64,000 nt of DNA from an uncultured Allomuricauda sp. (GTDB taxonomy: Bacteria; Bacteroidota; Bacteroidia; Flavobacteriales; Flavobacteriaceae), in contig NZ_CANLYK010000004.1 in the NCBI RefSeq assembly GCF_947495325.1, forward strand, positions 124,001 through 188,000, in the 5' to 3' direction. The notes under the pieces were generated by a model. That model was given only the letters and a program-made list of their open reading frames with translations. It had not been told where the DNA came from and made no database searches. Shown piece after piece: positions 12,119 through 36,949 of the stretch. The position numbers were made by a program, and so were the translations under genes. Each line of letters begins with the position of its first letter. Position 1 is the first letter of the stretch.

Positions 12119-12161
12119 CAAAACTATTGTAGAAAAGAAAGAAAATAAATGACAATTGTCA
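12119..12161 (-). promoter_or_regulatory. Crp/Fnr-type site and -7 box in front of hpf
   Basis: The operator at 12150-12161 is the perfect palindrome TGACAATTGTCA. The -7 box TAGTTTTG (12126 to 12119 on the minus strand) starts exactly 29.5 nt from the operator centre. The leader to the hpf ATG is only about 15 nt. Confidence 0.75.
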
Positions 12162-12179
12162 GTTTTGCAGCTTTAGGAG

Positions 12180-13499
12180 CTATCCAAGAAAAAATGGTTG
12201 CCCTGTACTTTGGAGCACTGAAAACCAAAAACCACCTTCTAAGTCAATCTTCTTTCTTTTGGAAACAACCGCAGTAATGGGCAGATACACAAATTTATCA
12301 TTGACCTTGCCCACAACAAACTTTGTTTTTCCGCTCATTGCACCATGCACGGCTTGGTATGCCAAGCTACTACAAAAAACACTGTCACTAGAATTTGCTG
12401 CGGCACTTCTGATAATATAACTTGGATCAATATATTTAATAGTCACTGGAAAAACATCTGAGAAGTATTCCTTTATTTTTTGTTTTAGGAATAACCCTAT
12501 ATCATCATGTTGAACATTTCCAGAAGCATCGGTCATTACAGCATTTTTCTCAAAAAGATGTTGCCCAGCACCTTCTGCAACAACAATGACCGCATGATGC
12601 TTGGTTTCCAATCTACTTTTTAAAACTTCCAAAAAGCCATTTTTGCCGTAAAGCTCAAAATCTAACTCTGGCACAAGGACAAAGTTCACTACTGGCATAG
12701 CAAGCGAAGCGGATGCAGCAATAAAACCGCTATCCCTACCCATTAACTTAATTATTGCAATGCCATTATAAGCTCCAGCAGCTTCATTATGTGCATCTTT
12801 TAAAATTGGACTTGCAATATCAAATGCCGTTTCAAAACCAAAAGACTTATCAATAATATCAACATCATTATCTATGGTCTTGGGAATTCCAACAACACTG
12901 ATATCTAGACCTCTTTTCATAATTTCTTCGCCAATGGCATTGCATCCTTTTAGGGTACCATCACCTCCTATTGTAAAGAGCATTTGAACATCATTTTTCA
13001 CCAAGGTGTCAACCATTACCGAAACATCTTGTGCTCCTCTTGAGGAACCTAAAATAGTGCCGCCAAACTGATGAATATCCTTTACTTTATCAGGAGTGAG
13101 CTCTATAAAACCATGTCCCATTTCAGGATTTAACCCTTCAAATCCATAGGGAACCCCCAAAATCTTTTTGACTCCATAAAAATAATGAAGTGCCATCACT
13201 ATTCCGCGGATCACATTGTTGATTCCTGGGCAAAGCCCTCCACAGGTAACAATAGCGGCGGTGGAATTTTCTGGATCAAAATGAATATTCTGCCTTGGAC
13301 CTGCTTTTTCAAAACACAACGGTTCTTCATTATTGGCCAAACATTTGGTATAGCCTTCCAAAGAAGTATCGAAAACCATTTTGTCCGTTTCGCTGATAAA
13401 TGTAAAAATATCATCTCCCCTTACAGTGCTTAACTGAAGGGGAGATTTGAATTTAGGAACTCCTAAATTTTCTATTTGGAATTCGATTTTATTACTCAC
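12180..13499 (-). CDS. pfkA: 6-phosphofructokinase, ATP-dependent plant/trypanosome-like group
   Basis: A 439-residue phosphofructokinase. TCGGLCPGINNVIRG near residue 85 binds nucleotide, TIGGDGTLKG near 177 has the Gly that marks ATP users at the position where PPi enzymes carry Asp, and GIPKTIDNDV near 203 has Lys where bacterial ATP-PFK has Gly. This Gly/Lys combination is that of the long ATP-dependent group of plants, trypanosomes and many spirochaetes and Bacteroidota. MGRDSGFIA near 253 contacts fructose 6-phosphate. It is the last gene of the usp-SLC13-pckA-pfkA unit, 12 bp after pckA. Pairing a glycolytic with a gluconeogenic enzyme under one promoter is notable. Confidence 0.9.
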   Translation of the reverse strand: MSNKIEFQIENLGVPKFKSPLQLSTVRGDDIFTFISETDKMVFDTSLEGYTKCLANNEEPLCFEKAGPRQNIHFDPENSTAAIVTCGGLCPGINNVIRGIVMALHYFYGVKKILGVPYGFEGLNPEMGHGFIELTPDKVKDIHQFGGTILGSSRGAQDVSVMVDTLVKNDVQMLFTIGGDGTLKGCNAIGEEIMKRGLDISVVGIPKTIDNDVDIIDKSFGFETAFDIASPILKDAHNEAAGAYNGIAIIKLMGRDSGFIAASASLAMPVVNFVLVPELDFELYGKNGFLEVLKSRLETKHHAVIVVAEGAGQHLFEKNAVMTDASGNVQHDDIGLFLKQKIKEYFSDVFPVTIKYIDPSYIIRSAAANSSDSVFCSSLAYQAVHGAMSGKTKFVVGKVNDKFVYLPITAVVSKRKKIDLEGGFWFSVLQSTGQPFFLG

Positions 13500-13511
13500 T
13501 TTGTCTTACAA

Positions 13512-15140
13512 TTAAAAATGCCCATCCAAGCTATGGTGTGAATCAATCAGTGGCCCACCATTTAGAATCTCTTCTGACGCTTCACTAGCAAATTTATCAA
13601 AATTAATATGGAATGAATGTGCCAATTGAATTGCTTTGCTTACATAAGCTCCTTTTTGCAACCAAGTGTTCATAGGGTCCAAAATCTCAGTTGGCACTCC
13701 CGGACAATATTTGGGCATGTGTAATCCAAAAATAGGATGGGCATCAAAGTCTACTTTATCCAAGTCACCTTCCAAAATGGCTGAAATCATTGCTCTGGTA
13801 TATTTCAATTTAATTCTTGAACCTACGCCATAGGGGCCGCCACTCCATCCAGTATTGACGAGCCATACATTAACACCTGCTTCAGTCATTTTCTTACTCA
13901 ACATTTCTGCATAAACCGCAGGGTGCAAAGGCATAAATGGTTCACCAAAACATGCGGAGAATGAGGGAACCGGTTCATTTATTCCTGCTTCTGTACCAGC
14001 AACTTTTGCAGTATATCCAGAAATGAAATGGTAAGCCGCCTGCCCAGGGGTCAGCTTAGAAACCGGAGGCAATACACCAAAGGCGTCACAGGTTAAGAAA
14101 AAGATGTTTTTTGGGTTTTCTGCATAAGAGGGTATCTGGATATTGTCAATATGATCAATAGGATAACTTACCCTCGTATTTTGGGTAATGGAGCTATCAA
14201 AGTAATCCACCTCTTTGGTTCCTTCTTTGAAAACAACATTTTCCAACAGCGCTCCAGGTCTAATAGCTCGATAAATGTCCGGCTCTTTCTCTTCTGTTAG
14301 GTCTATGACTTTGGCATAACATCCTCCTTCAAAATTAAAGATGATATTTTCTGCTGTCCAACCATGCTCATCATCTCCAATTAATTTTCTATTGGGGTCT
14401 GCGGACAAGGTTGTTTTTCCTGTACCGGATAAACCAAAGAAGATAGCGGTGTCGCCTTTCTCGCCTACATTGGCAGAGCAGTGCATTGGCAACACATTCT
14501 TATCTACCGGAAGTATTAAATTCAATGCAGAAAAGATACCTTTCTTCATTTCTCCTGGATACTCCGATCCTCCAACCAAAGCAATCTTGCGAGTAAAATT
14601 AAGAATGGAAAAATTACCTGCAATGATTCCAAAATCCTTTGGGTTAGGTGCTTCATACCCAGGCGCACATAGTACCAACCATTCTTCATCAAAGTCTTGT
14701 AATTCCTCCTCTGAAAGTCTCAGAAACATATTTTTGATAAAGTAGTTGGACCAAGGATACTCCGTAATCGTGCGAACGTTCATGGTATAGTCTGGGTGAG
14801 CACAAACTGCAGCATCCCTTACATATACTTCTTTGTTTGATAGATACTTGGCAATCTCGTTGTACAATTTGTCAAAGTTCTCAGGGGAAATTGGTTTGTT
14901 AATTCTACCCCACCACACCCTATCTTTTGTATACTCATCTTTTACCAAAAAACGGTCTTTAGGTGAGCGCCCTGTAAACTTTCCTGTATTTATAGATAGT
15001 GTTCCATTTTCAGTTTCGGTACCCATATCTTTTTCAACTGTAATACGTTGTAAGGTCTCTGCATCTAAATTCCAGAGCGCAGTAGTATTCTGTATTCCGT
15101 ACTTGCTTAAATCTTTTGTTTTTTCCGTGACTTCGTTCAT
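13512..15140 (-). CDS. pckA: Phosphoenolpyruvate carboxykinase (ATP)
   Basis: A 542-residue PEP carboxykinase, oxaloacetate + ATP to PEP, the entry to gluconeogenesis; in CO2-rich fermentation it can run in reverse. FFGLSGTGKTTLSADPNRKLIGDDEHGW holds the P-loop kinase-1a and metal-binding kinase-2 motifs, GRSPKDRFLV near the N-terminus and the arginine-rich NTRVSYP are substrate-binding. I start at MNEVTEKTKD (15140), 17 bp after the upstream gene stop; an in-frame Met 12 codons earlier would overlap the SLC13 gene. It lies between the transporter and pfkA in one operon, led by a universal stress protein gene. Confidence 0.96.
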   Translation of the reverse strand: MNEVTEKTKDLSKYGIQNTTALWNLDAETLQRITVEKDMGTETENGTLSINTGKFTGRSPKDRFLVKDEYTKDRVWWGRINKPISPENFDKLYNEIAKYLSNKEVYVRDAAVCAHPDYTMNVRTITEYPWSNYFIKNMFLRLSEEELQDFDEEWLVLCAPGYEAPNPKDFGIIAGNFSILNFTRKIALVGGSEYPGEMKKGIFSALNLILPVDKNVLPMHCSANVGEKGDTAIFFGLSGTGKTTLSADPNRKLIGDDEHGWTAENIIFNFEGGCYAKVIDLTEEKEPDIYRAIRPGALLENVVFKEGTKEVDYFDSSITQNTRVSYPIDHIDNIQIPSYAENPKNIFFLTCDAFGVLPPVSKLTPGQAAYHFISGYTAKVAGTEAGINEPVPSFSACFGEPFMPLHPAVYAEMLSKKMTEAGVNVWLVNTGWSGGPYGVGSRIKLKYTRAMISAILEGDLDKVDFDAHPIFGLHMPKYCPGVPTEILDPMNTWLQKGAYVSKAIQLAHSFHINFDKFASEASEEILNGGPLIDSHHSLDGHF

Positions 15141-15157
15141 AATTTTTGTTTTTAAGG

Positions 15158-16996
15158 TTAAAAGTTCCATATCCACGGAACCAATATTAATGTTGCAACA
15201 AAAAATAGGAGCAGTAATGGCCCTCCCACTTTTATGTAGTCTATAAATTTGTATCCCCCAGATGACATTACCATAGCATTGGTGGTCGTTCCAACTGGAG
15301 TTAAAAAAGCGGTTGAAGCACTAATTGCCACTCCAATCATAAATGGCTTAGGGGACACTCCCAATGTAGTTGAGGCCATTATAGCAATAGGCGCCATTAA
15401 AACTGCCGTCGCAGAATTGTTTATGGTTTGACTGAGTGTGGTGGTCAATATAAATATTCCTCCCAAAAGCGCAACAGGATGAATGCTTCCAAGTGAATTC
15501 ACCAAGCTATTGGCCGCCAATTGAGCCACGCCTGTCTTTTGTAGTGCAAGCCCCATGGGAATCATTGCCGCTATCATTATTACGCTTGTCCAACTAATTC
15601 CTTTGTATGCTTTTGAAATAGGAACACAACGGGTCAATAACATAATTCCCGCACAAATTAAAGCGGCTATGGCTCCTGGAAGTATTTTAAATACCAACAA
15701 CAAAATCATGAGTATAAGTGTTCCAATCGCAACATAACTACGTGCATTTAGTACAGCCACATTCTTTGACATTGATTCTGGACTTCCCGAAATCAATACG
15801 TTTTCATACAAAGACTTTAGGCTTTCTATATTTGTCCAGGATCCACGAATTACAAAGGCATCACCAGCTGCAATTTTTATTCTGCCCTTAAGGGCTCTAT
15901 TGTTTCTTGAAGCTGCCAATAATTGAACCCCTGCTTGTTTTAGATAATTTCCCAAATTGATGGTTTTACCTACAAACACAGAGTTTGGGGTAATCAGCAT
16001 TTCTGCCATTCCTACTTCTTGATTGATCAACTCGTTTTTAAGGGTATCTCTTTCTGCCTTGGTTGGAACAATGCCCAAATTATATTTTAAAACTAATTTA
16101 TCAACCGCCTCTGGTTCACCTTCCACAGTTATAATATCATGATACCGCATTTCGGTATCAGGGTCTGGCAATTCAACAAACTGAGGCACTTTTTGTTGTA
16201 ATGGACTGGGATGCCTTCGTTTTAAACGCATTACTGATATATTGTGTTCCTCTTCGAAATTCCAATGCCCTATCCTGGTATTTATAAAGGGGGACATTGA
16301 GCGTATCCTTAGACGATATAGGTTATCCCCGATACTATAGTTTTCAATCCATTTGTGCATTTCAGCATCAATATTCGCAGGTCTTTCATTAGTTTTTCGT
16401 TTGGGCAATAAGCGATAGCCCACGTACCTGAAATACACGATTGCAATAATCAATAACGGCAATCCTATCAAACTGAATTCAAAGAATGAGAACCCTTCAA
16501 AATTATTTTCAACCAAGGCGTTGCTAGCAATGATATTGGGAGGTGTTCCTGTAAGGGTTAAAAGTCCTCCAGTATTTGAGCCAAAAGCCACGGGCATAAG
16601 TAATTTTGATGGCAAAGTGCCGGCACTCCACGCAGCAGACACCGTAACAGGCAACAAGGCCGCTACCGTTCCTGTATTGCTTACAAAGCCTGAAAGAACA
16701 CTGGCTCCCAAAGTGACAATGACCAATAGTTTTGGGATACTCTTTCCTGCCCAACCTACAAAACGCTGCCCTGCCAATGCTGTCCATCCTGTTCTGGAAA
16801 GTCCTTCTCCAATGATGAACAAAGCAGCAATCATTATAACTGTTGAATTGCTAAAGCCCGACAGGGTTTCTTTTACATCCAGAATGCCTGCTAGATAGAG
16901 TGACAGCATGGACATAAGCGCCACAACATCTGGTGGAAACTTGCCCCAAATAAATAATAAGATTGTAATACCCAGTATTACCAATAATGTGAACAT
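15158..16996 (-). CDS. SLC13/DASS family permease with two TrkA-C domains
   Basis: A 612-residue inner-membrane transporter. The N-terminal half has about five membrane segments with the family hairpin FVSNTGTVAALLPV, a central soluble part (about residues 205-385) contains two TrkA-C/RCK-C modules (RIGHWNFEEEHNISVM..., and FVGKTINLGNYLKQAGVQLLA), and the C-terminal half repeats the fold with TLSQTINNSATAVLMAP. Family members import dicarboxylates, sulfate or related anions with Na+. Its place before pckA and pfkA makes a C4-dicarboxylate substrate plausible but unproven. It follows a usp gene by 22 bp. Confidence 0.88.
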   Translation of the reverse strand: MFTLLVILGITILLFIWGKFPPDVVALMSMLSLYLAGILDVKETLSGFSNSTVIMIAALFIIGEGLSRTGWTALAGQRFVGWAGKSIPKLLVIVTLGASVLSGFVSNTGTVAALLPVTVSAAWSAGTLPSKLLMPVAFGSNTGGLLTLTGTPPNIIASNALVENNFEGFSFFEFSLIGLPLLIIAIVYFRYVGYRLLPKRKTNERPANIDAEMHKWIENYSIGDNLYRLRIRSMSPFINTRIGHWNFEEEHNISVMRLKRRHPSPLQQKVPQFVELPDPDTEMRYHDIITVEGEPEAVDKLVLKYNLGIVPTKAERDTLKNELINQEVGMAEMLITPNSVFVGKTINLGNYLKQAGVQLLAASRNNRALKGRIKIAAGDAFVIRGSWTNIESLKSLYENVLISGSPESMSKNVAVLNARSYVAIGTLILMILLLVFKILPGAIAALICAGIMLLTRCVPISKAYKGISWTSVIMIAAMIPMGLALQKTGVAQLAANSLVNSLGSIHPVALLGGIFILTTTLSQTINNSATAVLMAPIAIMASTTLGVSPKPFMIGVAISASTAFLTPVGTTTNAMVMSSGGYKFIDYIKVGGPLLLLFFVATLILVPWIWNF

Positions 16997-17018
16997 ATCT
17001 TTTCTGTTGGAATAATAT

Positions 17019-17810
17019 TCAGTCCAAGGTTAAAACCGGTATCTCCGAATGCAGGGTCAACAGCTTTGTCAATCGTCCCTCAGAAGGAGAGCTCAATCTG
17101 GCGTGGTTTCTTGGCAAAATGGCAAGAAGATCAATGTTTTTCTTGTTGATGTAATTTAGAATGCCTTCTTCAACATCTTGATTTTTGTTGAATGTATGTT
17201 CCACATAAAAATGTTCTAAATAGTACTCCAATAAACTTTCCGTACTATCAACAATGGACTCCTCTGCATAAACAGATTCCTTATAAATGGTAAGTACATG
17301 TACCTTGGAATTAAAGGTGCGGGCAAGGTCTAAAAGAGTCTTTAAAACTTCCTTGTCCTCAATTTCCTCGTTGCCCATTACCAAGGCGATTTCCTTGGGT
17401 TCTTTAATACTGCATCCATACGGAATGGAAATAACAGGGCAATTAGCGTTTAACACTAATTTTGATGTGTTGGTTATAGCTTCATCCGTAACTTTATCGC
17501 CCATAGTTCCCATCATAATCAAATCAGCCTCATTTTCTTCCTGCATGGCAAGAATACTTTCAATGACCTCACCTGTAACAACGGCTAGTTTTGGAGCTTT
17601 TTTTGTCTTGGCTGAAAATGAGTCAATAACATTTTCAAAATCCAATCTCAACCTTTTCTCCTCAGACTCCGTAATCGGCATAGCTGAAACATATAAGGTC
17701 TCTATATCAACAACTCTATTAGGCCCGGCAAAGTTCATTACATAAGCCAAAGCATTGATGGATGCTTCAGAAAAATCGAATGGGACCAAAATTTTATTAA
17801 TGCTACTCAT
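17019..17810 (-). CDS. Universal stress protein, tandem UspA domains
   Basis: A 263-residue protein with two UspA-type alpha/beta domains (about 1-135 and 140-263). The first opens ILVPFDFSEASINALAY and carries MGTMGDKVTDEAITNTS, a partly degenerate version of the G-x2-G-x9-G(S/T) ATP loop; the second ends LPRNHARLSSPSEGRLTKLL, also without the canonical glycines, so ATP binding by either half is doubtful. It is the first gene of the usp-SLC13-pckA-pfkA operon and has a near-perfect Crp/Fnr-type operator and a TATTTTTG -7 box upstream. It is one of three intact usp genes in the island. Confidence 0.88.
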   Translation of the reverse strand: MSSINKILVPFDFSEASINALAYVMNFAGPNRVVDIETLYVSAMPITESEEKRLRLDFENVIDSFSAKTKKAPKLAVVTGEVIESILAMQEENEADLIMMGTMGDKVTDEAITNTSKLVLNANCPVISIPYGCSIKEPKEIALVMGNEEIEDKEVLKTLLDLARTFNSKVHVLTIYKESVYAEESIVDSTESLLEYYLEHFYVEHTFNKNQDVEEGILNYINKKNIDLLAILPRNHARLSSPSEGRLTKLLTLHSEIPVLTLD

Positions 17811-17844
17811 ACCAAAAAAATTAAATTATTAAAAATCTTCACTC

Positions 17845-17887
17845 CAAAAATAGAACCGCACCTTGACCTAAAATATGACAGAAATCA
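17845..17887 (-). promoter_or_regulatory. Crp/Fnr-type site and -7 box for the usp-SLC13-pckA-pfkA operon
   Basis: Operator TGACAGAAATCA at 17876-17887 (read as TGATTTCTGTCA toward the gene) and -7 box TATTTTTG from 17852 to 17845 on the minus strand. Centre-to-box distance is 29.5 nt, the same as at hpf and the other sites. No matching -7 box lies on the plus side, so the divergent ROK gene is probably not driven by it. Confidence 0.7.
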
Positions 17888-17991
17888 GGTTTTAAAATTT
17901 TAGTGCCAAAACACGCTATCATATTGTTTTAAATCCTTTTATGAACTCCATATTATTTATCTTTAAGTATCTCAATAAAAAGCACGGGAAC

Positions 17992-18951
17992 ATGGAATTA
18001 GTTTTAGGAATAGACATTGGTGGAACCAAAACAAAGATTGGATTGGTTGATAAAAGTGGGAAATGCCATACAAAGGCTGTTTTTAGAACAAGGGAATTTC
18101 CCAACTTGGAAGATTATCTGGATAAAGTCAAGGGTGTTTCAAATGAACTCATCCAAAGTATTGATGAAAAAACAACCATTTTAGGTTGTGGCATCGGTGC
18201 TCCAAATGCCTCCAGTAAAAATGGCACAATAGAAAATGCAAGTAATTTGGTATGGAAGGGCAGTGTTCCAATTCTTGAAAAATTAAGGGAAAGGATGGAT
18301 ATGCCCATGAGAATTATGAATGATGCAAGTGCTGCCGCATTGGGCGAAATGCTTTTTGGGGGAGCCCAGAGCCTAACTGATTTTATAGTAATTACACTAG
18401 GTACAGGTTTTGGCGCAGGGATTGTTGCAAATGGAAGATTGATTGACGGATATGATGGTTTTGCCGGGGAACTGGGTCATGTAGATATGACCATAGGTGA
18501 TGGCAGGCTAACGGGACTGGGAATTCGAGGTGGATTGGAAGCTTATGTATCTGCCACCGGCCTAAAACGAACCATAATGTACATGTTAAGCAAGTATTTG
18601 GTTGATAGTAGGTTTAGGAATATTGCATACAACGATTTACATGGCGAAGATATTACGAAAGCAGCCGAAGAAGGAGATATTATTGCCTTAAAGGCTTTTG
18701 ATTATACAGCAAAAATTATGGCTCAGGCGCTAGCCAATTTCACGGCCTTCACACAACCTGAAGCCTTTATTCTAATGGGAGGTTTGACAAATAGCGGCAA
18801 ATGGATAAAAGAACCGCTTGAATCTTATTTTAATGAATTTCTCTTAGATGTTTACAAAGGCAAGGTAAAATTGTTGGAATCGGGTATGCATGGAAAAACA
18901 GCGGCAATTTGTGGAGCGGCTGCCTTAATATGGGAAATCCAGGAAGCCTAA
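17992..18951 (+). CDS. ROK family sugar kinase (glucokinase-like) lacking the zinc-site cysteines
   Basis: A 319-residue ROK protein. ATP-binding GIDIGGTKTKIGLVD opens the protein, NDASAAALGE near residue 118 carries the catalytic Asp, and LGTGFGAGIV near 142 is the second phosphate loop; GELGH near 168 holds the sugar-binding Glu/His. The usual zinc motif CGCGxxGC that follows is replaced by TGLGIRGG, so all three cysteines are lost. There is no N-terminal helix-turn-helix, so it is a kinase not a repressor. Start set at MELVLGID; a plausible -7 box (TATCTTTA, 17958-17965) supports this over the longer frame. It is divergent from the usp operon. Confidence 0.83.
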   Translation: MELVLGIDIGGTKTKIGLVDKSGKCHTKAVFRTREFPNLEDYLDKVKGVSNELIQSIDEKTTILGCGIGAPNASSKNGTIENASNLVWKGSVPILEKLRERMDMPMRIMNDASAAALGEMLFGGAQSLTDFIVITLGTGFGAGIVANGRLIDGYDGFAGELGHVDMTIGDGRLTGLGIRGGLEAYVSATGLKRTIMYMLSKYLVDSRFRNIAYNDLHGEDITKAAEEGDIIALKAFDYTAKIMAQALANFTAFTQPEAFILMGGLTNSGKWIKEPLESYFNEFLLDVYKGKVKLLESGMHGKTAAICGAAALIWEIQEA

Positions 18952-18987
18952 TCTAAGCCCAGAATGGATGGGATTTAATACTGGAAC

Positions 18988-19031
18988 TGACAAGTATCAT
19001 ACTTTTTTGCAACAATAAACACAAAACTTTG
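18988..19031 (+). promoter_or_regulatory. Crp/Fnr-type site and -7 box for the DUF2490 gene
   Basis: Operator TGACAAGTATCA at 18988-18999 and a -7-like AAACTTTG at 19024-19031. The centre-to-box distance is 30.5 nt, one more than in the other sites, and the box lacks its first T, so this is the weakest promoter match of the set. Confidence 0.55.
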
Positions 19032-19056
19032 TACTCCAGAAATAAAGACCAATATT

Positions 19057-19773: not shown

Positions 19774-19800
19774 TAGGTAAAAATAGGTATTGCCAAGACC

Positions 19801-19843
19801 TGATTATTATCATATTTTTTGACAATTGACCTATCTAACTTTA
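19801..19843 (+). promoter_or_regulatory. Crp/Fnr-type site and -7 box for tonB
   Basis: Operator TGATTATTATCA at 19801-19812 and -7 box TAACTTTA at 19836-19843, again with 29.5 nt from operator centre to the first base of the box. Confidence 0.65.
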
Positions 19844-19865
19844 TCTCAATTAAATAGGAAAAGTC

Positions 19866-20591: not shown

Positions 20592-20614
20592 TCGTTGTAA
20601 GTTCTAAAACCCAG

Positions 20615-20645
20615 AGGCTCTTGAATCAAATCTTGAGCCTTTTCA
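20615..20645 (+). terminator. Terminator after tonB
   Basis: Stem AGGCTC / GAGCCT with a 14-nt loop followed by TTTTC, 24 bp after the tonB stop and just before the convergent hydrolase gene end. Confidence 0.55.
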
Positions 20646-20646
20646 T

Positions 20647-21843: not shown

Positions 21844-21846
21844 ATT

Positions 21847-23700: not shown

Positions 23701-23727
23701 GAACTTACTACTTCTTTACGGTTCGAA

Positions 23728-23770
23728 TAAAACTACAAAGTGTTCAGACCATAAAATATGATTCTTGTCA
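23728..23770 (-). promoter_or_regulatory. Crp/Fnr-type site and -7 box for the GCS2-CBS operon
   Basis: Operator TGATTCTTGTCA at 23759-23770 (TGACAAGAATCA toward the gene) and -7 box TAGTTTTA from 23735 to 23728 on the minus strand, spacing 29.5 nt. It is one of two separate sites in the divergent region shared with hemN. Confidence 0.65.
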
Positions 23771-23792
23771 TGCTCGAGATTCTAGGCTGTCC

Positions 23793-23835
23793 TGACATTT
23801 ATCATGTTTTTTAAAAACATGGCAGGTTAATTTTG
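23793..23835 (+). promoter_or_regulatory. Crp/Fnr-type site and -7 box for hemN-usp
   Basis: Operator TGACATTTATCA at 23793-23804 and consensus -7 box TAATTTTG at 23828-23835, spacing 29.5 nt. The operator is identical in sequence to that between ccoI and the Crp/Fnr gene. The leader to the hemN ATG is about 14 nt. Confidence 0.75.
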
Positions 23836-23855
23836 ACAAATACCATTATTCGATT

Positions 23856-25214: not shown

Positions 25215-25231
25215 TTATAAAACCAAATCTA

Positions 25232-26053: not shown

Positions 26054-26091
26054 TGATTGTTTTTTGATAGGGTTTTGTTTTATTTAAATTG

Positions 26092-26125
26092 AAAAAAGGG
26101 AAGCTATACAAGTTTCCCTTTTTTT
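26092..26125. terminator. Bidirectional terminator between usp and the CoA-transferase gene
   Basis: A stem formed by AAAAAAGGGAA and TTCCCTTTTTT with a 10-nt central part has a T-run on the plus strand and an A-run on the left, so it can stop transcripts from both sides. The two flanking genes converge on it. Confidence 0.75.
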
Positions 26126-26141
26126 ATGTTCCGCCAAAATA

Positions 26142-27410: not shown

Positions 27411-27420
27411 TTTTATGTTT

Positions 27421-28134
27421 TTATGGTTGATGACATTCTATGGTTGCTGTGGCCAAATCCGTTTGAATCGGTTTTGGCGATACATAAGGAATTCCAAGTC
27501 CCAAACCCCTAATAATAAACAAAATCCCAATGAGTATGACGAATACGGGGATAACTTTTTTTAGGTTTTGCCGTAAAGCACCTTTCATTAATCCTCTTGA
27601 AAAAACAACAAAGGTCATTAATGGGATGGTTCCCAGCCCAAATAAAATCATATAAGCGCCTGCTTGAAGACCATGTGCCAGACCTATTGCCCCCAAAAGT
27701 GCCATATAGACCAATCCGCAGGGTAAAAAACCGTTTAAAAAACCAATGGTCAGGAAAACATCTGGAGTCTTTTTTTTGAGTTCAGCTCCAAGTTTTGATT
27801 TTAATTTTCCCAATACGGTATAAATTGGTCTGGAGAGTCTGCCGCTCAAAACATATTTGCTGGGAATCAATACCAGAGCAATCATAACCACTCCAATTAC
27901 AATAGATAATTTCTGCTGAATACCAAATAACGATAATCCTTTTCCCAAGAAACCAAAGAGCAATCCAATGATTCCATATGCCAGGAGTCTTCCAAAATGA
28001 TAGATAAACAGTTGTGTTGTCTTCCTGGTTGTGTTATTTTGATCTAAAGGTAACATAAAAGCAATAGGGCCGCACATTCCCAAGCAGTGCAAGCTTCCCA
28101 AAAATCCTAATATAATTGCCGATAGAAATACCAT
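27421..28134 (-). CDS. Sulfite exporter TauE/SafE family membrane protein
   Basis: A 237-residue membrane protein with about six helices. The N-terminal GSLHCLGMCGPIAFMLPL is the hallmark cysteine motif of the heavy-metal/cytochrome-linked subgroup (UreH-like, related to DsbD/CcdA-like transporters) found beside cbb3 oxidase genes, where a copper or redox role in oxidase assembly is inferred. A second LNGFLPCGLVYMALLGA repeats the motif in the middle. Its start overlaps the stop of the FixH gene by one base, so translation is coupled. Confidence 0.85.
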   Translation of the reverse strand: MVFLSAIILGFLGSLHCLGMCGPIAFMLPLDQNNTTRKTTQLFIYHFGRLLAYGIIGLLFGFLGKGLSLFGIQQKLSIVIGVVMIALVLIPSKYVLSGRLSRPIYTVLGKLKSKLGAELKKKTPDVFLTIGFLNGFLPCGLVYMALLGAIGLAHGLQAGAYMILFGLGTIPLMTFVVFSRGLMKGALRQNLKKVIPVFVILIGILFIIRGLGLGIPYVSPKPIQTDLATATIECHQP

Positions 28135-28580: not shown

Positions 28581-28591
28581 GATGCTATTTT

Positions 28592-30001: not shown

Positions 30002-30073
30002 TGCAATTGTATTTTAACCTCAACAGTATTTCTAAACCAACACCTCTTCTTGAGGTATGAGGTACTGGTTCTT

Positions 30074-31027
30074 TTAATTCATCGCTACATCTGTAGAATC
30101 AGAAACCTGTTCCGTTCGAGTTTCTTCAATAGTTTCTTCTGATTCAGGTGCATCTGGATCCACCCAAATTTCACCTTCTGGTGCTTTTGGGTCTGCTGGG
30201 GTTGTACCTCCCAATGTTAATATATAACTGGCCACTTGTGCCATTTCTACAGGTTTTAGACTTTGTTTCCAGGCAATCATACCCTTACCATCCCGACCTC
30301 CTTCGGAAATGGTATTAAATACATTTTTGATGCCTCCGCCCAAAATCCAATATTCATCTGTTAGGTTAGGGCCAATTCCTCCACCTCCATCAGCCATATG
30401 ACATGCAACACAACTTGTGGTAAATATTTTTTCTCCAGCACTCAAATCTGCCGCTTCGGATAAAAATTCCACGGTATTGACATCGACCAAATCCTTAGCA
30501 GTTTTCTTATATTCTTCAATGGCAATTTTAGCTGCAGCTACTTCCTGTTCGTATTCCAATTTCTGGTCATAGTCGCCAGCAACATGAAAACGTATGAGAT
30601 AAACTACCCCAAAAATGATGGTGGCATAAAAGAGGTATACCCACCAAGGAGGCAAAACATTGTCCAACTCCCTAATTCCATCATAATTATGGTCCAGGAT
30701 TATTTCGCCTTCTTTTTCAATTTCCTTGGTCTTGGTGAGGCGTTTATAGATATTTTTAACCCATGTCCATTCCCTTTTCCTAACCTTGGACGCCAAATAG
30801 CGTTCTTTCGCCTCTTCTGAAAGTGTTTGGAACATTACATTTTCAATAGATTTTAAAATCAGCTCTATTGCAATTAATATCATCAATACCATCAGCAAAA
30901 AAAACTGTGTGATTGGATATTCAATGATAGCTGGTTTATCACCCGAATCTATAAAGTATTCCATTAATCCGAAGATGATGAAGAATAATAGCGGAATGCG
31001 AATCCACCAAGGTGTTCTTGTACTCAT
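30074..31027 (-). CDS. ccoP: cbb3 cytochrome oxidase subunit III (CcoP), mono-haem
   Basis: A 317-residue membrane-bound cytochrome c. Two N-terminal helices (about 10-60) are followed by a charged part, a third helix (WWVYLFYATIIFGVVYLIRF) and one c-type haem motif CVACH near residue 206, with GPNLTDEYWILGG and a distal Met (GKGMIAWK). Proteobacterial CcoP has two haems; one is common in Bacteroidota. An acidic tail follows the haem domain. It passes electrons to the CcoN-CcoO protein. It is 4 bp after ccoQ. Confidence 0.93.
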   Translation of the reverse strand: MSTRTPWWIRIPLLFFIIFGLMEYFIDSGDKPAIIEYPITQFFLLMVLMILIAIELILKSIENVMFQTLSEEAKERYLASKVRKREWTWVKNIYKRLTKTKEIEKEGEIILDHNYDGIRELDNVLPPWWVYLFYATIIFGVVYLIRFHVAGDYDQKLEYEQEVAAAKIAIEEYKKTAKDLVDVNTVEFLSEAADLSAGEKIFTTSCVACHMADGGGGIGPNLTDEYWILGGGIKNVFNTISEGGRDGKGMIAWKQSLKPVEMAQVASYILTLGGTTPADPKAPEGEIWVDPDAPESEETIEETRTEQVSDSTDVAMN

Positions 31028-31031
31028 AATG

Positions 31032-31217
31032 CTATAGTTTATTTTGTTGATCGTTATCTAAAGGCAGCTCCGCCATTTCTTTTATATGTGCCTTGGTAGC
31101 AGTAAACACCCACCAAAACAACAGGACAAAGAACACGAAGAATATTAATAGGGATATCATGGGATAACTTGCTATCCCTTCTATACTTTCCATATGGTTT
31201 TTTACAAATTTCAACAT
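31032..31217 (-). CDS. ccoQ: CcoQ/FixQ small subunit of cbb3 oxidase
   Basis: A 61-residue single-helix membrane protein (YPMISLLIFFVFFVLLFWWVFTAT, about residues 18-41) between ccoNO and ccoP, the position of CcoQ. CcoQ stabilises the oxidase against oxygen. The short charged tail (HIKEMAELPLDNDQQNKL) is typical for the flavobacterial form. Confidence 0.88.
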   Translation of the reverse strand: MLKFVKNHMESIEGIASYPMISLLIFFVFFVLLFWWVFTATKAHIKEMAELPLDNDQQNKL

Positions 31218-31240
31218 GGTGATTTGTTTTGAGATTGTAA

Positions 31241-33421
31241 TTATTCTGTTTCTTTTACTTTAATATCAGTACCCAATCGTTGCAGGTAAGCAATCAATGC
31301 AACTATTTCCCTATCGCGCATTTCAATAAAATCCTCTCCATTTTCTTGCGCATATTTTTTATCGGCCTCATAGGTTCTTTCAAACTCTGGATCTGTATAC
31401 AGATTCTTCTCTATTTGTATAGCTTGTTCTGCCATGGATTGCGGCGCATTTGCTATATCATCATCTGTATAAGGCACGCCAAGGCTAACCATGGCTTCCA
31501 TTTTATTTTGAACAGCGCTTCTGTCATGTTCATTAATGACCAACCACTGATAGGCAGGCATAATTGAACCTGATGACGTACTTTGTGGATCATACATATG
31601 GTTCAGGTGCCAATTATCAGAGTACTTCCCTCCAATTCGCAATAAATCCGGACCAGTTCGCTTACTACCCCATAGAAAAGGGTGATCGTAAACAAATTCT
31701 CCTGCCTTGGCATATTCTCCATAGCGTTCCACTTCACTTCTAAAAGGTCTGATCATTTGGGAGTGACAACCCACACAACCTTCACGAATGTATAGATCCC
31801 GACCTTCCAATTCTAAAGGTGTATATGGTTTTACACTTGTGATGGTAGGAATATTGGATTTTACCAGAATAGTTGGTACAATCTGGATAATGCCTCCTAT
31901 TAAAATGGCAACTGTGGCCAAAATGGTCAATTGCACTGGTCTACGTTCCAACCAGTTGTGGAAGGTCTCTCCAGAAGTTCTTCTTTTAGAAACCCTTGTC
32001 AAGGCAGGTGCCTCTGCTTTTTCATCCTCTACGGAGCTTCCTTTTCTAATTGTGACAATCACATTGTAGACCATAATCAACATACCAACAAGGAACATGG
32101 TACCTCCTATAGCACGCATCCAATACATTGGGATGATTTGAGTTACGGTTTCCAAGAAGTTTCCATAGACCAATGATCCATCTGGATTGAATTCTTTCCA
32201 CATTAGTGCTTGGGTAAACCCTGCAACATACATGGGCAATGCATATAGGATAATACCTAAGGTCCCAATCCAGAAATGCAAGTTTGCCAACCCTTTTGAA
32301 TACAGTGTTGTCTTGAACATTTTGGGAACCAGCCAATAAATCATACCGAAGGTCAAAAATCCATTCCAAGCCAGTGCCCCAACGTGTACGTGAGCAATAA
32401 TCCAATCGCTAAAATGCGCGATGGCATTTACATTTTTTAAGGATAACATTGGGCCTTCAAAAGTGGCCATACCATAACCTGTAATGGCAACTACCATAAA
32501 TTTTAAAGTGGCATCGCTACGTACTTTATCCCAAACGCCTCTCAAGGTTAAAAGTCCATTGATCATACCACCCCAAGACGGAGCAATCAACATAATAGAG
32601 AAAACAACCCCTAAGTTTTGAGCCCAATCTGGTAAAGACGAATACAACAAATGGTGAGGTCCTGCCCAGATATAAATGAATATCAATGACCAGAAATGGA
32701 CAATGGAAAGGCGATAAGAATATATAGGTCTATTGGCTGCCTTGGGAACAAAATAGTACATCAATCCCAAAAATGGTGTGGTTAAAAAGAAGGCCACGGC
32801 ATTATGTCCGTACCACCATTGCACCAAAGCATCTTGTACCCCCGCGTACACCGAATAACTTTTTAATGCGGCCACGGGCAACTCCAAGCTATTAAAAATA
32901 TGAAGTACAGCTACGGTGACAAATGTTGCCAGGTAAAACCAAATTGCCACATAGAGATGGCGTTGTCTTCTTTTTAAGATGGTTCCAATCAGGTTCCAAC
33001 CAAAAACGACCCAAACCACAGCGATGGCAATATCTATGGGCCATTCCAATTCTGCATATTCTTTAGAGGTAGTATACCCCAAAGGCAAGGTAATGGCGGC
33101 AGCCACAATAATCAGTTGCCAGCCCCAAAAATTAAAATTGCTCAGAAAATCACTGAACATTCGCGCTTTCAGTAATCTTTGGGTGGAATAATAGACCCCG
33201 GCAAAGATGGCGTTCCCGACAAATGCAAAAATCACGGCATTGGTATGCAATGGGCGCAAACGTCCAAAGCTCAACCACGAAATACCATCTGTGATATTGG
33301 GAAACAAAAACATAAATGCCAGCAGCAGTCCTACCAACATTCCAACAACGCCCCACAGCATGGTAGCGTATAAAAACTTTTGTACGATTTTGTTATCGTA
33401 GCTAAATTGTTGTATTTCCAT
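31241..33421 (-). CDS. ccoNO: cbb3 cytochrome oxidase subunits I and II fused (CcoN-CcoO)
   Basis: A 726-residue fusion. The N-terminal part (about 1-470) is the 12-helix CcoN with haem- and copper-binding histidines in LHTNAVIFAF, WWYGHNAVAFF, WAGPHHLLYSS and AHVHVGALAWNG. The C-terminal part (about 495-726) is CcoO, one helix followed by the c-haem motif CVGCHSQM near residue 549. In most proteobacteria these are separate genes; the fusion is a Bacteroidota trait. It reduces oxygen with high affinity and pumps protons. Its first codons overlap the end of ccoS by 20 bp. Confidence 0.96.
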   Translation of the reverse strand: MEIQQFSYDNKIVQKFLYATMLWGVVGMLVGLLLAFMFLFPNITDGISWLSFGRLRPLHTNAVIFAFVGNAIFAGVYYSTQRLLKARMFSDFLSNFNFWGWQLIIVAAAITLPLGYTTSKEYAELEWPIDIAIAVVWVVFGWNLIGTILKRRQRHLYVAIWFYLATFVTVAVLHIFNSLELPVAALKSYSVYAGVQDALVQWWYGHNAVAFFLTTPFLGLMYYFVPKAANRPIYSYRLSIVHFWSLIFIYIWAGPHHLLYSSLPDWAQNLGVVFSIMLIAPSWGGMINGLLTLRGVWDKVRSDATLKFMVVAITGYGMATFEGPMLSLKNVNAIAHFSDWIIAHVHVGALAWNGFLTFGMIYWLVPKMFKTTLYSKGLANLHFWIGTLGIILYALPMYVAGFTQALMWKEFNPDGSLVYGNFLETVTQIIPMYWMRAIGGTMFLVGMLIMVYNVIVTIRKGSSVEDEKAEAPALTRVSKRRTSGETFHNWLERRPVQLTILATVAILIGGIIQIVPTILVKSNIPTITSVKPYTPLELEGRDLYIREGCVGCHSQMIRPFRSEVERYGEYAKAGEFVYDHPFLWGSKRTGPDLLRIGGKYSDNWHLNHMYDPQSTSSGSIMPAYQWLVINEHDRSAVQNKMEAMVSLGVPYTDDDIANAPQSMAEQAIQIEKNLYTDPEFERTYEADKKYAQENGEDFIEMRDREIVALIAYLQRLGTDIKVKETE

Positions 33422-33632
33422 ATGTATTGGTTTGTTCTTTACTTTGTTTGATTTCTGTAATTTCTGCTTCGGTTTCTTCTAAATCACCTATTAATTCATC
33501 CTCAAAAAGCATACGGACTGAAGGTGTATATGCATCATCATATTGTCCACTTTTGACCGAAAAGACAAAAGCAACAAAAAAGACCAGCGCAACTGAAATG
33601 CTTATGGCCAACAACACATATATAACACTCAT
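33402..33632 (-). CDS. ccoS: cbb3 oxidase maturation protein CcoS
   Basis: A 76-residue protein with one N-terminal helix (VIYVLLAISISVALVFFVAFVFSV) then SGQYDDAYTPSVRMLFEDE, the CcoS signature. CcoS is needed to insert haem and copper into CcoN. It opens the operon ccoS-NO-Q-P-G-H-safE-CoA transferase, 51 bp after a Crp/Fnr-type site. Confidence 0.93.
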   Translation of the reverse strand: MSVIYVLLAISISVALVFFVAFVFSVKSGQYDDAYTPSVRMLFEDELIGDLEETEAEITEIKQSKEQTNTYGNTTI

Positions 33633-33651
33633 ACCTACCTGAATTCTAGCG

Positions 33652-33694
33652 TAAAACTACATTGCCGTTCTTGTGAAAAAAATGACATATATCA
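33652..33694 (-). promoter_or_regulatory. Crp/Fnr-type site and -7 box for the cbb3 operon
   Basis: Operator TGACATATATCA at 33683-33694 (TGATATATGTCA toward ccoS) and -7 box TAGTTTTA from 33659 to 33652 on the minus strand, spacing 29.5 nt. It lies in the 71-bp gap between ccoI and ccoS, so the oxidase operon has its own promoter although ccoI is upstream on the same strand. Confidence 0.75.
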
Positions 33695-33703
33695 GTTTTT
33701 AAT

Positions 33704-36076
33704 TTATTTTAATCTCCTACCAAAAAAGTTTGTGCACAAGGTTGTGAAAATCACTATACTGATTGAACTCAAAGGCATAAGTATTGCCGCAACTACAGGT
33801 TCTAACTGGCCTGTAACCGCGAAATACAATCCAATAACATTATAGCACAATGAGAGGAGGAAACTGAGTTTTATAATTTGAATAGATTTTCTCGATAGCT
33901 TCAGAAAAGCAGGAAGTTTGGTCAGGTTTGAAGCATCTAAAATGGCATCGCATGCCGGTGAAAAAACGTTGATATCTTCAGAAATGGATACACCCACATT
34001 ACTTTGGGCCAAAGCACCAGCATCGTTGAGTCCGTCACCAACCATAAGTACACTATGGTCTTTTTGCAGATGTTTTATATAATCTAATTTGTCCTTAGGT
34101 TTTTGGTTGAACAGTAAATTGGTTTTAGCAGGAAGTATGCCTTGCAACTGTTTTCTTTCACCATCATTATCTCCAGACAATATTCCAATATTCATGGTTT
34201 TGCCCAAGGCGACAAAAAGCTCTTCCACCCCATCTCTATATTTATTCTTGAACACAAACCTGCCTTTGAAATCCTCATCAGAACTAATATAAACAGCTGT
34301 ATCTGATACAAGTTTTGGCACAGATTCTCCAACATAGCTAGCAGAACCTGCTTTAATGGTATGCTTGTTCAATTTCCCTTCCACTCCTTTGCCAGTATGC
34401 TCTTGAAATTCATCCAGGGTCGTTATGGCATTGGATTTTAATATCTCATATAGAGACCTGCTCAATGGATGGTTGGATGCGCGCAAGGTGGTTTTTAACA
34501 ATGTGGTTTCTTCCTTGGTCAATTCAATCCCTTCATATAGAATGGCATCTTTTGCGGTTGTTGTTATGGTTCCTGTTTTATCAAATATGGCGGTGTCAAT
34601 TTTTGACAATCGCTCTATGACATTGGTATTTTTTAGGTAGAATTTGTGCTTGCCATAAATGCGAAGCATATTTCCCAGCGTAAATGGAGCGGCTAGAGCA
34701 ATTGCGCAGGGGCACGCAATGATAAGGACAGCCGTAAAAACGTTAAGGGCCATGCTTGGCATATAAAACAACCAAAACATGGTCGCCAATGTAGCAATGC
34801 TCAAAACCCCAATGGTAAATCGCTTTCCAATACTATCCGTTAATGTTTGAAAGGTGGTTATCTTATCTTTTGAAAATATCGAATTGCTCCATAGTTGGGT
34901 GAGATAACTTTGCGAGACAGATTTTACAACCTCAACCTCCAAGACCCCTGAAAGTTGTTTTCCTCCAGCAAATAGCTTTTCTCCAGAAGCCTTAAAAACT
35001 GCATTGGATTCCCCAGTTACAAAACTGTAGTCTATTTCGGCATTACCTTTAATCAAAATACTGTCTACAGGAATAATTTCCATACTCCTGATCAAGAGCC
35101 TATCTCCTGTCTTTATTTTATAAATTTGAATGTTTTCTTCCTCTCCGTTAGCATTCAATCTTGTTACGGCTATTGGAAAGTAAGATTTATAATCTCTTTC
35201 AAAAGAGAGAAATGAGTAGGTTTTCTGTTGAAAAAATTTTCCCAATAAAAGAAAAAATACCAAGCCCGTCAGGCTATCAAAAAAACCAGATCCCAAATCA
35301 AAAATAATATCAACCGTACTCCTTAAAAACAGGGTTAAAATTCCCAGGGCAATGGGAACATCAATGTTCAATACTTTAGAGCGCAATCCTTTAAAGGCCG
35401 AAATAAAATAATCTTGCCCTGCATAAAACACTACTGGTAGTGAAAAGGCAAACATCAACCAACGAAACACCGGTTTATACTGATTTAGCCAAAATTCCTC
35501 AACCTCAAAATATTCAGGGAAAGAGAACAGCATTATATTACCAAAAGCAAAACCTGCAACACCAAGCTTATAGATGAGTGAACGGTCTACTTTTGTATTT
35601 TTCTTGGTATACTCTTCTAAGGAAATGTAAGGTTCATACCCTATGGCGCTCAACAGTAGCACAAGAGCCTTCAAAGAAAAATCCTTTGATCTATAGGTTA
35701 CCCTGATGGTCTTTTTAGGAAAATCTACTTGTGAAGTAGAAATAGATGAATGCATACGATTCAGGTTTTCCAATACCCAAATGCAGGAGCTACAATGAAT
35801 GTTTGGAATGCTCAAATTGACAACTTGAACTCCCTCCTCATTAAACTCGATAAGTTTTTCAACAATATCCTGATTATCCAGAAAATCGTACTTGTGCTGA
35901 ATTTCATTTGGAGTGGTACCTGCCCTAGCCTCAATGTCATAGAAATTAGACAACCCATTGGAAGTGAAAATCTCATAGACCGTTTTACAACCATTGCAAC
36001 AAAACTCCTTTTCATCGAAAAGAACCGGTGCGCGATTGCAATCATCCCCACAATGATAACATCTCATGTTTGTCAT
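33704..36076 (-). CDS. ccoI: Copper-transporting P-type ATPase for cbb3 assembly
   Basis: A 790-residue P1B-type ATPase. The N-terminus has a Cys-rich zinc-finger-like part (CYHCGDDC...FCCNGCKTVY), then a heavy-metal domain with HCSSCIWVLENL near residue 95. TGESNAVF near 355 (actuator), the CPCAIALAAP ion site near 455, phosphorylated Asp in DKTGTITTT near 499, and GDGLNDAGAL near 681 are all intact, so it is active. It supplies copper to the oxidase. It is divergent from the Crp/Fnr gene and shares one operator with it. Confidence 0.95.
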   Translation of the reverse strand: MTNMRCYHCGDDCNRAPVLFDEKEFCCNGCKTVYEIFTSNGLSNFYDIEARAGTTPNEIQHKYDFLDNQDIVEKLIEFNEEGVQVVNLSIPNIHCSSCIWVLENLNRMHSSISTSQVDFPKKTIRVTYRSKDFSLKALVLLLSAIGYEPYISLEEYTKKNTKVDRSLIYKLGVAGFAFGNIMLFSFPEYFEVEEFWLNQYKPVFRWLMFAFSLPVVFYAGQDYFISAFKGLRSKVLNIDVPIALGILTLFLRSTVDIIFDLGSGFFDSLTGLVFFLLLGKFFQQKTYSFLSFERDYKSYFPIAVTRLNANGEEENIQIYKIKTGDRLLIRSMEIIPVDSILIKGNAEIDYSFVTGESNAVFKASGEKLFAGGKQLSGVLEVEVVKSVSQSYLTQLWSNSIFSKDKITTFQTLTDSIGKRFTIGVLSIATLATMFWLFYMPSMALNVFTAVLIIACPCAIALAAPFTLGNMLRIYGKHKFYLKNTNVIERLSKIDTAIFDKTGTITTTAKDAILYEGIELTKEETTLLKTTLRASNHPLSRSLYEILKSNAITTLDEFQEHTGKGVEGKLNKHTIKAGSASYVGESVPKLVSDTAVYISSDEDFKGRFVFKNKYRDGVEELFVALGKTMNIGILSGDNDGERKQLQGILPAKTNLLFNQKPKDKLDYIKHLQKDHSVLMVGDGLNDAGALAQSNVGVSISEDINVFSPACDAILDASNLTKLPAFLKLSRKSIQIIKLSFLLSLCYNVIGLYFAVTGQLEPVVAAILMPLSSISIVIFTTLCTNFFGRRLK

Positions 36077-36097
36077 TTACATTTGCTTTACCCAAGA

Positions 36098-36171
36098 CAA
36101 AATTGTTACACATTTTATTGTTAAAACATGACATTTATCAGTTCTTGTTCAATACTTTAGATTTAATTTTG
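36098..36171. promoter_or_regulatory. One Crp/Fnr-type site serving two divergent promoters (ccoI and crp/fnr)
   Basis: Operator TGACATTTATCA at 36129-36140. On the plus side the consensus -7 box TAATTTTG lies at 36164-36171; on the minus side CAATTTTG runs from 36105 to 36098. Both boxes start 29.5 nt from the same centre, and the two ATG codons are 53 and 56 bp from the operator edges. The regulator therefore probably activates its own gene and the copper pump gene from one site. Confidence 0.75.
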
Positions 36172-36195
36172 TGCTATCAGGTAAATCAAAACGTT

Positions 36196-36885
36196 ATGGA
36201 GAGCAGGTGTGAAAATTGCATCGTTAGACAATTCAATTCGCTAAGGGCAATGAGCAAAGAAGAATTGAAGAAAGTATCCGACTCTAAAACCATAAAAAAA
36301 GTCAAAAAAGGAGAGCCTCTTTTCGAGGAAGGTGAGAAATTGAATGGTGTTTTTTGTGTTCGAGATGGGGTTTCTAAACTCTCCAAACTTAGTGCCAATG
36401 GAAAAGATCAAATTGTAAAATTGGCAACCAAAGGAGAAGTGCTTGGACAACGGTCCGTGATAGCTGAAGAATGCACCAATCTTTCCGCGATAGCTGTCAA
36501 TGATATGGAAGTATGTTTTATTCCAAAAGAAAGTATTAATAATACTTTACAAAGTAATCCGAATTTCACCCTTGAAGTGTTGCGGCATATGGCACATGAT
36601 CTTAAAGAAGCCGATGACGTTATCGTAAACATGTCTCAAAAAACTGTAAAACAACGTATTGCCGAAGCCTTTTTATATCTAAAAAATAATTTTGGTGAAG
36701 ATGAAGATGGCTTTTTGGCCTTAACACTGTCCAGAGAAGATATATCAAATGTTGTAGGTACCGCTACGGAGTCTGCCATTCGAATTATTTCAGAATTCAA
36801 GAAAAAAGGGTTTATTCATACCTCTGGAAAGAAGGTAGGCATAACAAATGAGCGCAAGCTAGCTGAACTGGTCGAAGGTTTCTAA
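36196..36885 (+). CDS. Crp/Fnr family transcriptional regulator
   Basis: A 229-residue regulator and the likely master of the surrounding genes. A cyclic-nucleotide-type beta-roll (about 25-130) is followed by the dimer helix and a winged HTH (LSREDISNVVGTATESAIRIISEFKKKGF), whose recognition helix has the Glu and Arg positions of Fnr/Crp. The N-terminus has CENC (C5, C8) and further Cys at 54, 93 and 107. E. coli Fnr uses three N-terminal cysteines plus one distal; here only CxxC is near the N-terminus. Start chosen at MESRCENC because a longer frame would run through the operator. Autoregulated by the shared site. Confidence 0.88.
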   Translation: MESRCENCIVRQFNSLRAMSKEELKKVSDSKTIKKVKKGEPLFEEGEKLNGVFCVRDGVSKLSKLSANGKDQIVKLATKGEVLGQRSVIAEECTNLSAIAVNDMEVCFIPKESINNTLQSNPNFTLEVLRHMAHDLKEADDVIVNMSQKTVKQRIAEAFLYLKNNFGEDEDGFLALTLSREDISNVVGTATESAIRIISEFKKKGFIHTSGKKVGITNERKLAELVEGF

Positions 36886-36906
36886 AACTACGTCCAAATC
36901 AAAACC

Positions 36907-36949
36907 TGATAATTGTCATAGTATCCCTTTTTGCTTAGCGTTAATTTTA
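36907..36949 (+). promoter_or_regulatory. Crp/Fnr-type site and -7 box for the third usp gene
   Basis: Operator TGATAATTGTCA at 36907-36918 and -7 box TAATTTTA at 36942-36949, spacing 29.5 nt. It lies directly after the Crp/Fnr gene and 54 bp before the usp ATG. Confidence 0.72.

Follow-up and report, generated by a model that had tools for sequence, protein, structure and literature searches.

Palindromes at a fixed distance from the promoter

The window analysed here is a stretch of 64,000 nucleotides (nt) from an uncultured Allomuricauda sp. (C4:124001-188000 of the 4.11 Mb genome G000), and it holds an island of Crp/Fnr-type palindromes placed at an almost constant distance from the promoters of cbb3 oxidase, haem-synthesis, universal stress (usp) and other genes. 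Marine flavobacteria probably use an FNR-like regulator to turn on low-oxygen genes from such fixed-distance sites, and related genera seem, from their gene content, to keep the sites and to read them with a different sensor protein. All nine TGAYWNNWRTCA palindromes of the window fall within 12150-36918. The initial annotation had placed nine sites before ten promoters with fixed spacing in nine of them; every one of these sites was found again, and the gap from site to -7 box, when re-measured, was 23 nt in nine of the ten promoters (eight with a TAnnTTTR box, and ccoI with CAATTTTG). The remaining promoter, that of DUF2490, had been described as having a longer spacing and a TAnn box. The spacing is indeed longer, at 24 nt, while the box is AAACTTTG and thus not of the TAnn form.

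On the minus strand, 23 nt separate site and box before hpf (12119-12161; site TGACAATTGTCA at 12150-12161, box TAGTTTTG at 12119-12126), usp-SLC13-pckA-pfkA (17845-17887; site TGATTTCTGTCA at 17876-17887, box TATTTTTG at 17845-17852), GCS2-CBS (23728-23770; site TGACAAGAATCA at 23759-23770, box TAGTTTTA at 23728-23735), the ccoS-ccoNO-ccoP-ccoG-ccoH operon (33652-33694; site TGATATATGTCA at 33683-33694, box TAGTTTTA at 33652-33659) and ccoI (36098-36140; box at 36098-36105), whose palindrome at 36129-36140 is shared with the regulator gene. The same gap is found on the plus strand before tonB (19801-19843; site TGATTATTATCA at 19801-19812, box TAACTTTA at 19836-19843), hemN (23793-23835; site TGACATTTATCA at 23793-23804, box TAATTTTG at 23828-23835), the regulator (36129-36171; site TGACATTTATCA at 36129-36140, box TAATTTTG at 36164-36171) and the third usp gene (36907-36949; site TGATAATTGTCA at 36907-36918, box TAATTTTA at 36942-36949). 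The DUF2490 promoter, also on the plus strand, occupies 18988-19031 (site TGACAAGTATCA at 18988-18999, box at 19024-19031).

The palindromes are far more frequent and more regularly placed than expected by chance. Exact composites, defined as a site followed after 23 nt by TAnnTTTR, number eight in the window, while 100 first-order Markov simulations averaged 0.01 and never gave more than 1. The whole genome contains 12, eight of them inside the island, and the reversed control none; with one mismatch allowed the counts are 27 and 5. Bare palindromes number 103 genome-wide against 54 for the reversed pattern. When the gap was left free between 10 and 38 nt, 28 places were found in the genome (control 7); 11 lie at 23 nt, one having entered via a shorter match, and no other gap occurs more than twice. 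Chance clustering of the sites was rejected on the simulations, the reversed controls and the density of the island. It had been proposed that site density in the island be compared with the rest of the genome, and the excess is clear: the 24.8-kb island holds 9 palindromes where 0.57 are expected (Poisson 1e-8). The island is not the whole regulon, which is wider. An equal frequency within genes, or random spacing, would have spoken against the motif, yet none of the nine palindromes lies in a gene and 23 nt is the dominant gap. All nine are intergenic, in an island where, from hpf to the third usp gene, 1,557 of 26,080 bases are intergenic, and the sites were accordingly rejected as accidents of coding sequence.

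Pfam matches confirmed hpf (Ribosomal_S30AE), pfkA, pckA, a CitMHS/SLC13-type transporter, three usp genes, a ROK gene, DUF2490, TonB_C, GCS2-CBS, hemN, ccoS, the fused ccoNO, ccoP, ccoG, ccoH, ccoI and the regulator. Of these matches, that of GCS2 is weak (23.7 bits against a cut-off of 21), and that of ccoS, first gene of the cbb3 operon (33402-33632, minus strand), is to FixS at 2.9e-18. The gene at 27421-28134 encodes a DsbD_2 protein.

Promoter geometry

A logo built from 216 unique promoters shows AAAn(C/A)TGAYA-WW-TRTCA(T/G)n-TTT, then a weak stretch, then TAnTTTT(A/G). The base ahead of TGA is C or A, and T in none of the 216, and the final base of the -7 box is A in 69% of them. In the mapped transcriptome of Flavobacterium psychrophilum the sigma-A box TAnnTTTG spans -12 to -5 (PMC9723704). 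Because of the 23-nt gap and this published box position, the site centre falls at -41.5, the class II activator position, where it overlaps the -35/-33 region; the start points are those given by the published box position. This upholds the proposal of the initial annotation that class II placement is combined here with a promoter of the Bacteroidota type, and the 23-nt gap is conserved in many genera.

No separate TTTG near -33 is visible in the logo, and the A/T flanks of the palindrome are symmetric. The downstream TTTT run was considered as a -33 promoter element and rejected: it mirrors the upstream AAA run about the palindrome centre, and both runs are therefore read as operator flanks. 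The sites could in principle be repression operators or dual sites rather than class II activator sites, and repression is within the range of FNR-type proteins. We regard this as very improbable, as the centre lies at the activator position in promoter after promoter with no separate -33 element, a repressor would not require constant spacing on one face of the helix, and the targets belong to the genes typically induced at low oxygen.

Conservation within and beyond the family

In a sample of 199 Flavobacteriaceae genomes, one per genus and tallied without phylogenetic correction, 171 genera have at least one exact composite, a figure with which a check of the 28 rows without any agrees. The composites total 2047, and a hand count of the reversed control gave 45. 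The 1.50 Mb around the regulator gene in 80 named relatives contain 261 palindromes, and the reversed control yields 22. Of the 291 TAnnTTTR boxes that stand no more than 60 nt from a site, 221 have a gap of exactly 23 nt, 33 a gap of 0 and 9 a gap of 17, and no other gap is represented more than 5 times; the reversed-site control gives one box in all.

Ten relatives were read over about 30 kb for conservation of the targets. The site shared by ccoI and the regulator is kept with both boxes in 10/10, the cco operon site in 9/10, the hemN site in all nine with hemN in the stretch, the third usp site in eight of nine with a homologue of that gene, and the nosZ site in 4/4. GCS2-CBS is likewise preceded by a site in G176. 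A search of 20 genomes of the genus found an orthologous DUF2490 locus in 12, our own genome counted; among these loci exact composites are present before usp in 8/12 and before tonB in 9/12, and the DUF2490 arrangement of 24 nt and AAnnTTTG is kept in 8/12.

The ccoI box, as had been noted, departs from TAnn: its first base is A, C or G and never T in 67/67 loci with a strict site. These come from 80 loci, 13 of which lack a strict site within 320 bases, some running into contig ends; when the site was defined more loosely and the gene start less precisely, the non-T box was found in 67/69. On the regulator side, 58 of the 67 strict-site loci have TAnnTTTR after 23 nt. Since the additional base and AA of DUF2490 and the non-T base of ccoI are kept, even the exceptions are conserved.

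Against the generality of the arrangement, the composite thins out outside the family. In a phylum-wide sample, counted by eye, at least three composites were found in 19/19 genomes of the same family, 1/2 of the same order, 8/28 of the same class and 3/149 of the rest.

Sites outside the island

The island is one cluster within a wider regulon. Two of the four composites outside it stand before a TonB-dependent receptor operon and the nos operon, which encodes a cytochrome c, NosZ (TIGR04246, 930.9 bits, cut-off 625), NosL and NosD, and one stands before a biotin-carboxylase operon. Two places are doubtful: the composite at C2:820165 and, on contig C3, one with a gap of 22 nt ahead of a pyridoxal-phosphate enzyme gene.

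At C1:316785-330000 the nos operon (Sec-dependent NosZ, NosL, NosD) adjoins genes for the TonB-dependent receptor, a YtkA-like protein and an Rrf2-like protein, the last identified by eye. The composite motif heads both the nos and the receptor operons at this locus, and the receptor may import copper for NosZ.

An FNR-like regulator within the island

The regulator gene had been placed inside the cluster, and it does lie there, at 36196-36885 on the plus strand, with a site in its own promoter. It encodes an FNR-like protein of 229 residues (cNMP_binding and HTH_Crp_2), here called type A, which is 95-96% identical to counterparts in Allomuricauda and Flagellimonas strains. The cNMP-type beta-roll and Crp-type helix-turn-helix of the FNR fold are both present. 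In a predicted model (mean predicted local distance difference test score 86.8) C54 lies in strand 51-57 and C107 in strand 104-110, and the nearest solved folds include 2gau and holo-FNR 5e44.

A profile alignment with Aliivibrio fischeri FNR places C5, C8 and C107 on C20, C23 and C122, while N14 stands opposite FNR C29 and an alanine of FNR opposite C54. The FNR ligand cysteines are C20, C23, C29 and C122; type A fills three of the four ligand places and has an invariant C54 in addition. C5, C8, C54 and C107 are invariant in 29/29 sequences of alignment A1 and in 40/40 more distant orthologues, and the recognition-helix residues E192, I195 and R196 are invariant in the same 69. These are 69 of 70 orthologues, A1 omitting one locus of 30 (L059); the 40 were drawn from the 199 genomes, and in G043 and G020 the stretch after CxxC differs and the alignment is less sure. 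All of the 120 closest matches listed in a protein search with A1 are near relatives. E192 and R196 align with FNR E209 and R213.

The pattern of cysteines suggests that C54 may replace C29 as fourth iron-sulphur ligand. It is also conceivable, if somewhat unlikely, that C54 is structural or engaged in a disulfide and that any cluster would be held by three cysteines, the remaining ligand being N14 or solvent rather than a cysteine. N14, aligned with FNR C29, is invariant in the 29 sequences of A1. Among 38 further orthologues with an aligned residue, though, it is replaced in four (serine in G127, G014 and G094, glycine in G186), while C54 is kept in 40/40. The type B paralogue encoded in the same genome also speaks for the exchange, having a third N-terminal cysteine and no C54.

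This paralogue, at C2:14908-15672, has CxxC-x4-C and a C107 equivalent, a more classical FNR cysteine set. A further arrangement was observed in G176 (L196:1540-3016), where two tandem regulator genes lie between the third usp gene and ccoI, the second 33% identical to type A.

A second regulator type and its co-occurrence with the sites

Several composite-rich genomes lack a type A regulator. Most such genomes examined encode instead a protein of about 355 residues, type C, in which a receiver domain precedes the cNMP-binding domain and a Crp-type helix-turn-helix that shares its helix pattern, ATESLIR, with type A (Response_reg, cNMP_binding and HTH_Crp_2 in the two regulators scanned). A histidine kinase gene adjoins the receiver-CRP gene in 13/13 loci, as in FixLJ-type systems, and three kinases scanned contain PAS, HisKA and HATPase domains. 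Among the 14 distinct PDB sequences matched by the kinase PAS domain, 13 are DosP or FixL, one being listed as YddU, which we take to be the same protein as DosP. A histidine aligned with the DosP histidine, and the arginine of GxGR, are kept in all ten PAS segments printed (of 13 loci); these are presumably the haem ligands of DosP, proximal histidine and distal arginine.

Type C genomes have sites before usp, hpf, hemN, the nos region, ccoI (box AACCTTTG) and usp-SLC13 (box TAGTTTTA), and the site precedes hpf in four of the five type C loci with an hpf match. As a point against generality, in the type C-only genome G027 no strict site lies directly before ccoNO, with sites present before ccoI, hemN and the nos region.

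In loci L177-L189 the receiver-CRP and PAS histidine kinase genes (FixL/DosP-like PAS) sit in a usp gene cluster. Beside the usp genes of L177 and L183 we recognised by eye genes for a metallo-beta-lactamase-fold exonuclease-like protein and an ATP-cone protein, and in L183 also one for a small heat-shock-like protein.

Regulators were called at thresholds of our own choosing, 1e-50 for type A and 1e-70 for type C, with tables copied by hand, and G194 is counted under C with a truncated copy. Type A alone is found in 70 genomes (643 composites; at least three in 63/70), type C alone in 37 (391 composites; at least three in 37/37) and both in 48 (948 composites; at least three in 48/48), so that 148 of 155 genomes with either regulator have at least three composites. 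Neither regulator is found in 44 genomes, which together have 65 composites, with at least three in 4/44. Genomes with neither are often small; if only those of at least 2.5 Mb are considered the split is kept, at 139/143 against 1/13. A link between the encoded Crp/Fnr protein and the sites, which the initial annotation had inferred, is supported indirectly: the regulator gene is itself preceded by a site, and few composites occur in genomes that lack both type A and type C.

The genome encodes ten cNMP-binding proteins, and another Crp/Fnr paralogue could be the main binder, above all type B, which keeps the equivalents of E192, I195 and R196 along with its FNR-like cysteines. We consider this quite improbable. 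The two genomes with B and neither A nor C contain few composites (one in G051, none in G165), several genomes with A and no B orthologue keep their sites (for example 14 in G182, 14 in G106 and 9 in G176), and the type B gene is far from the cluster. Types A and B may nevertheless both bind the sites. Type B as sole binder was set aside on these B-only genomes and A genomes without B.

A proposed low-oxygen regulon

The island is, in our view, likely the core of a microaerobic regulon, with the type A protein as class II activator at low oxygen. A type A dimer would bind AAAn(C/A)TGAYA-WW-TRTCA(T/G)nTTT centred at -41.5, beside the Bacteroidota sigma-A polymerase, and would bring about class II activation at promoters that have TAnnTTTR as their -7 box and lack a separate -33 TTTG. 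Its action at low oxygen would depend on an iron-sulphur cluster on C5, C8, C107 and a fourth ligand, probably C54. Expression of ccoSNOPGH and ccoI (cbb3 oxidase and its assembly), hemN (haem synthesis), hpf (ribosome hibernation) and usp would be raised, as would that of genes for C4/phosphoenolpyruvate metabolism, TonB and DUF2490 functions and nos (nitrous oxide reduction). The sites, their spacing and conservation and their co-occurrence with the regulator are observed; binding, the direction of the effect, the cluster, the signal and where transcription starts in this organism are what we infer. Oxygen limitation is described as raising cbb3 oxidase and haem-synthesis genes in F. psychrophilum (PMC9723704); these are classes that have sites here, and we count this in favour of the regulon. 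The words Fnr and Crp are absent from that paper's main text.

Several observations weigh against it. The boxes of ccoI and DUF2490 are off consensus, and the outside matches C1:1266380 and C2:820165 may be due to chance. Type A lacks the fourth FNR ligand C29 and scores 104.2 bits with the NCBIfam FNR model, below the cut-off of 228, with FNR still the best model. Seven of the 70 type A-only genomes hold at most two composites, while four genomes with neither regulator have at least three: G048 (28; genome 82% complete), G147 (13; 73% complete), G138 (8) and G188 (3). Of the 40 distant orthologues, 31 have a strict palindrome upstream, but a count by eye found only one with TAnnTTTR in forward orientation after 23 nt; judging from these upstream regions, the -41.5 promoter of the regulator gene itself is a feature of its subclade.

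The signal might be nitric oxide, a nucleotide or carbon status in place of oxygen. CRP/FNR homologues of a Flavobacteriales genome, which may or may not be of type A, have been predicted to sense carbon and are placed near MalR (PMC8510549); moreover, the best structural match of type A is 2gau, a Crp/Fnr protein of Porphyromonas gingivalis, and the nos operon is among the targets. Such a signal nevertheless appears unlikely, given four invariant cysteines, three of them at FNR ligand places, and an alternative regulator paired with a PAS kinase resembling oxygen-sensing haem PAS domains. Returning to oxygen as the signal, one 23-nt architecture could be read throughout the Flavobacteriaceae by two interchangeable sensors, an FNR with C54 as ligand and a haem-PAS kinase with its receiver-CRP protein, while targets and promoter quirks such as the non-T ccoI box stay; the fourth ligand of that FNR would have shifted out of the N-terminal loop into a beta-roll strand; we offer this tentatively, as a proposition with slightly less in its favour than against it.

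Comparison with known systems

Class II activation is established, as is control of cbb3 and hemN by FNR, whose class II promoters include such low-oxygen targets. Type A resembles the FNR of Escherichia coli and A. fischeri in fold, in length, in the equivalents of C20, C23 and C122, in the TGA...TCA core of its site and in the -41.5 centre. It differs in lacking C29 and having the invariant C54 instead, and in I195 where FNR has Ser212. The FNR consensus has T before TGA, unlike the C or A found here, and the promoter is of the Bacteroidota type TAnnTTTR. With the class II promoters of CRP/CAP the system shares an A/T-flanked palindrome, the -41.5 centre and the fold. Dependence of type A on cyclic AMP is not expected, because its score with the NCBIfam CRP model is 53.3 bits, below the cut-off of 266.

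Compared with the Bacteroidota sigma-A promoter (TAnnTTTG), the -7 box agrees with that mapped in F. psychrophilum (PMC9723704), whereas the -33 element is replaced by a regulator site and the final base of the box is often A. In rhizobia, FnrN and FixK bring two oxygen inputs to one operator type before fixNOQP-like genes (PMC7888657), and exchange between FixK and FnrN is established there (PMC7888657, PMC7078487), as described in the parts of these articles consulted. Type A is comparable to FnrN, and the PAS kinase with receiver-CRP protein to FixL-FixJ-FixK; as the receiver and CRP parts form one protein, FixJ and FixK are in effect fused. Unlike the rhizobial circuit, the promoters here are of the Bacteroidota type, and the NCBIfam match to FixK is weak (51.8 bits, cut-off 300). 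In our searches of open-licence papers we found no description of the motif, the spacing or the receiver-CRP partner in flavobacteria.

The Flavobacteriaceae are a major family in soil, marine and freshwater habitats (PMC9723704). If the reading is true, their low-oxygen and nitrous oxide-reduction genes can be predicted genome by genome from a motif in which 20 positions are specified or half-specified, and the promoters provide a Bacteroidota class II example of exact geometry, so that activation of a TAnnTTTG-reading polymerase can be put to the test. The displaced iron-sulphur ligand and the exchange of sensors are put forward as proposals on sequence grounds. The displaced cysteine would be a natural variant of the FNR iron-sulphur site, and the sensor exchange would be a natural rewiring experiment in which the targets are held constant.

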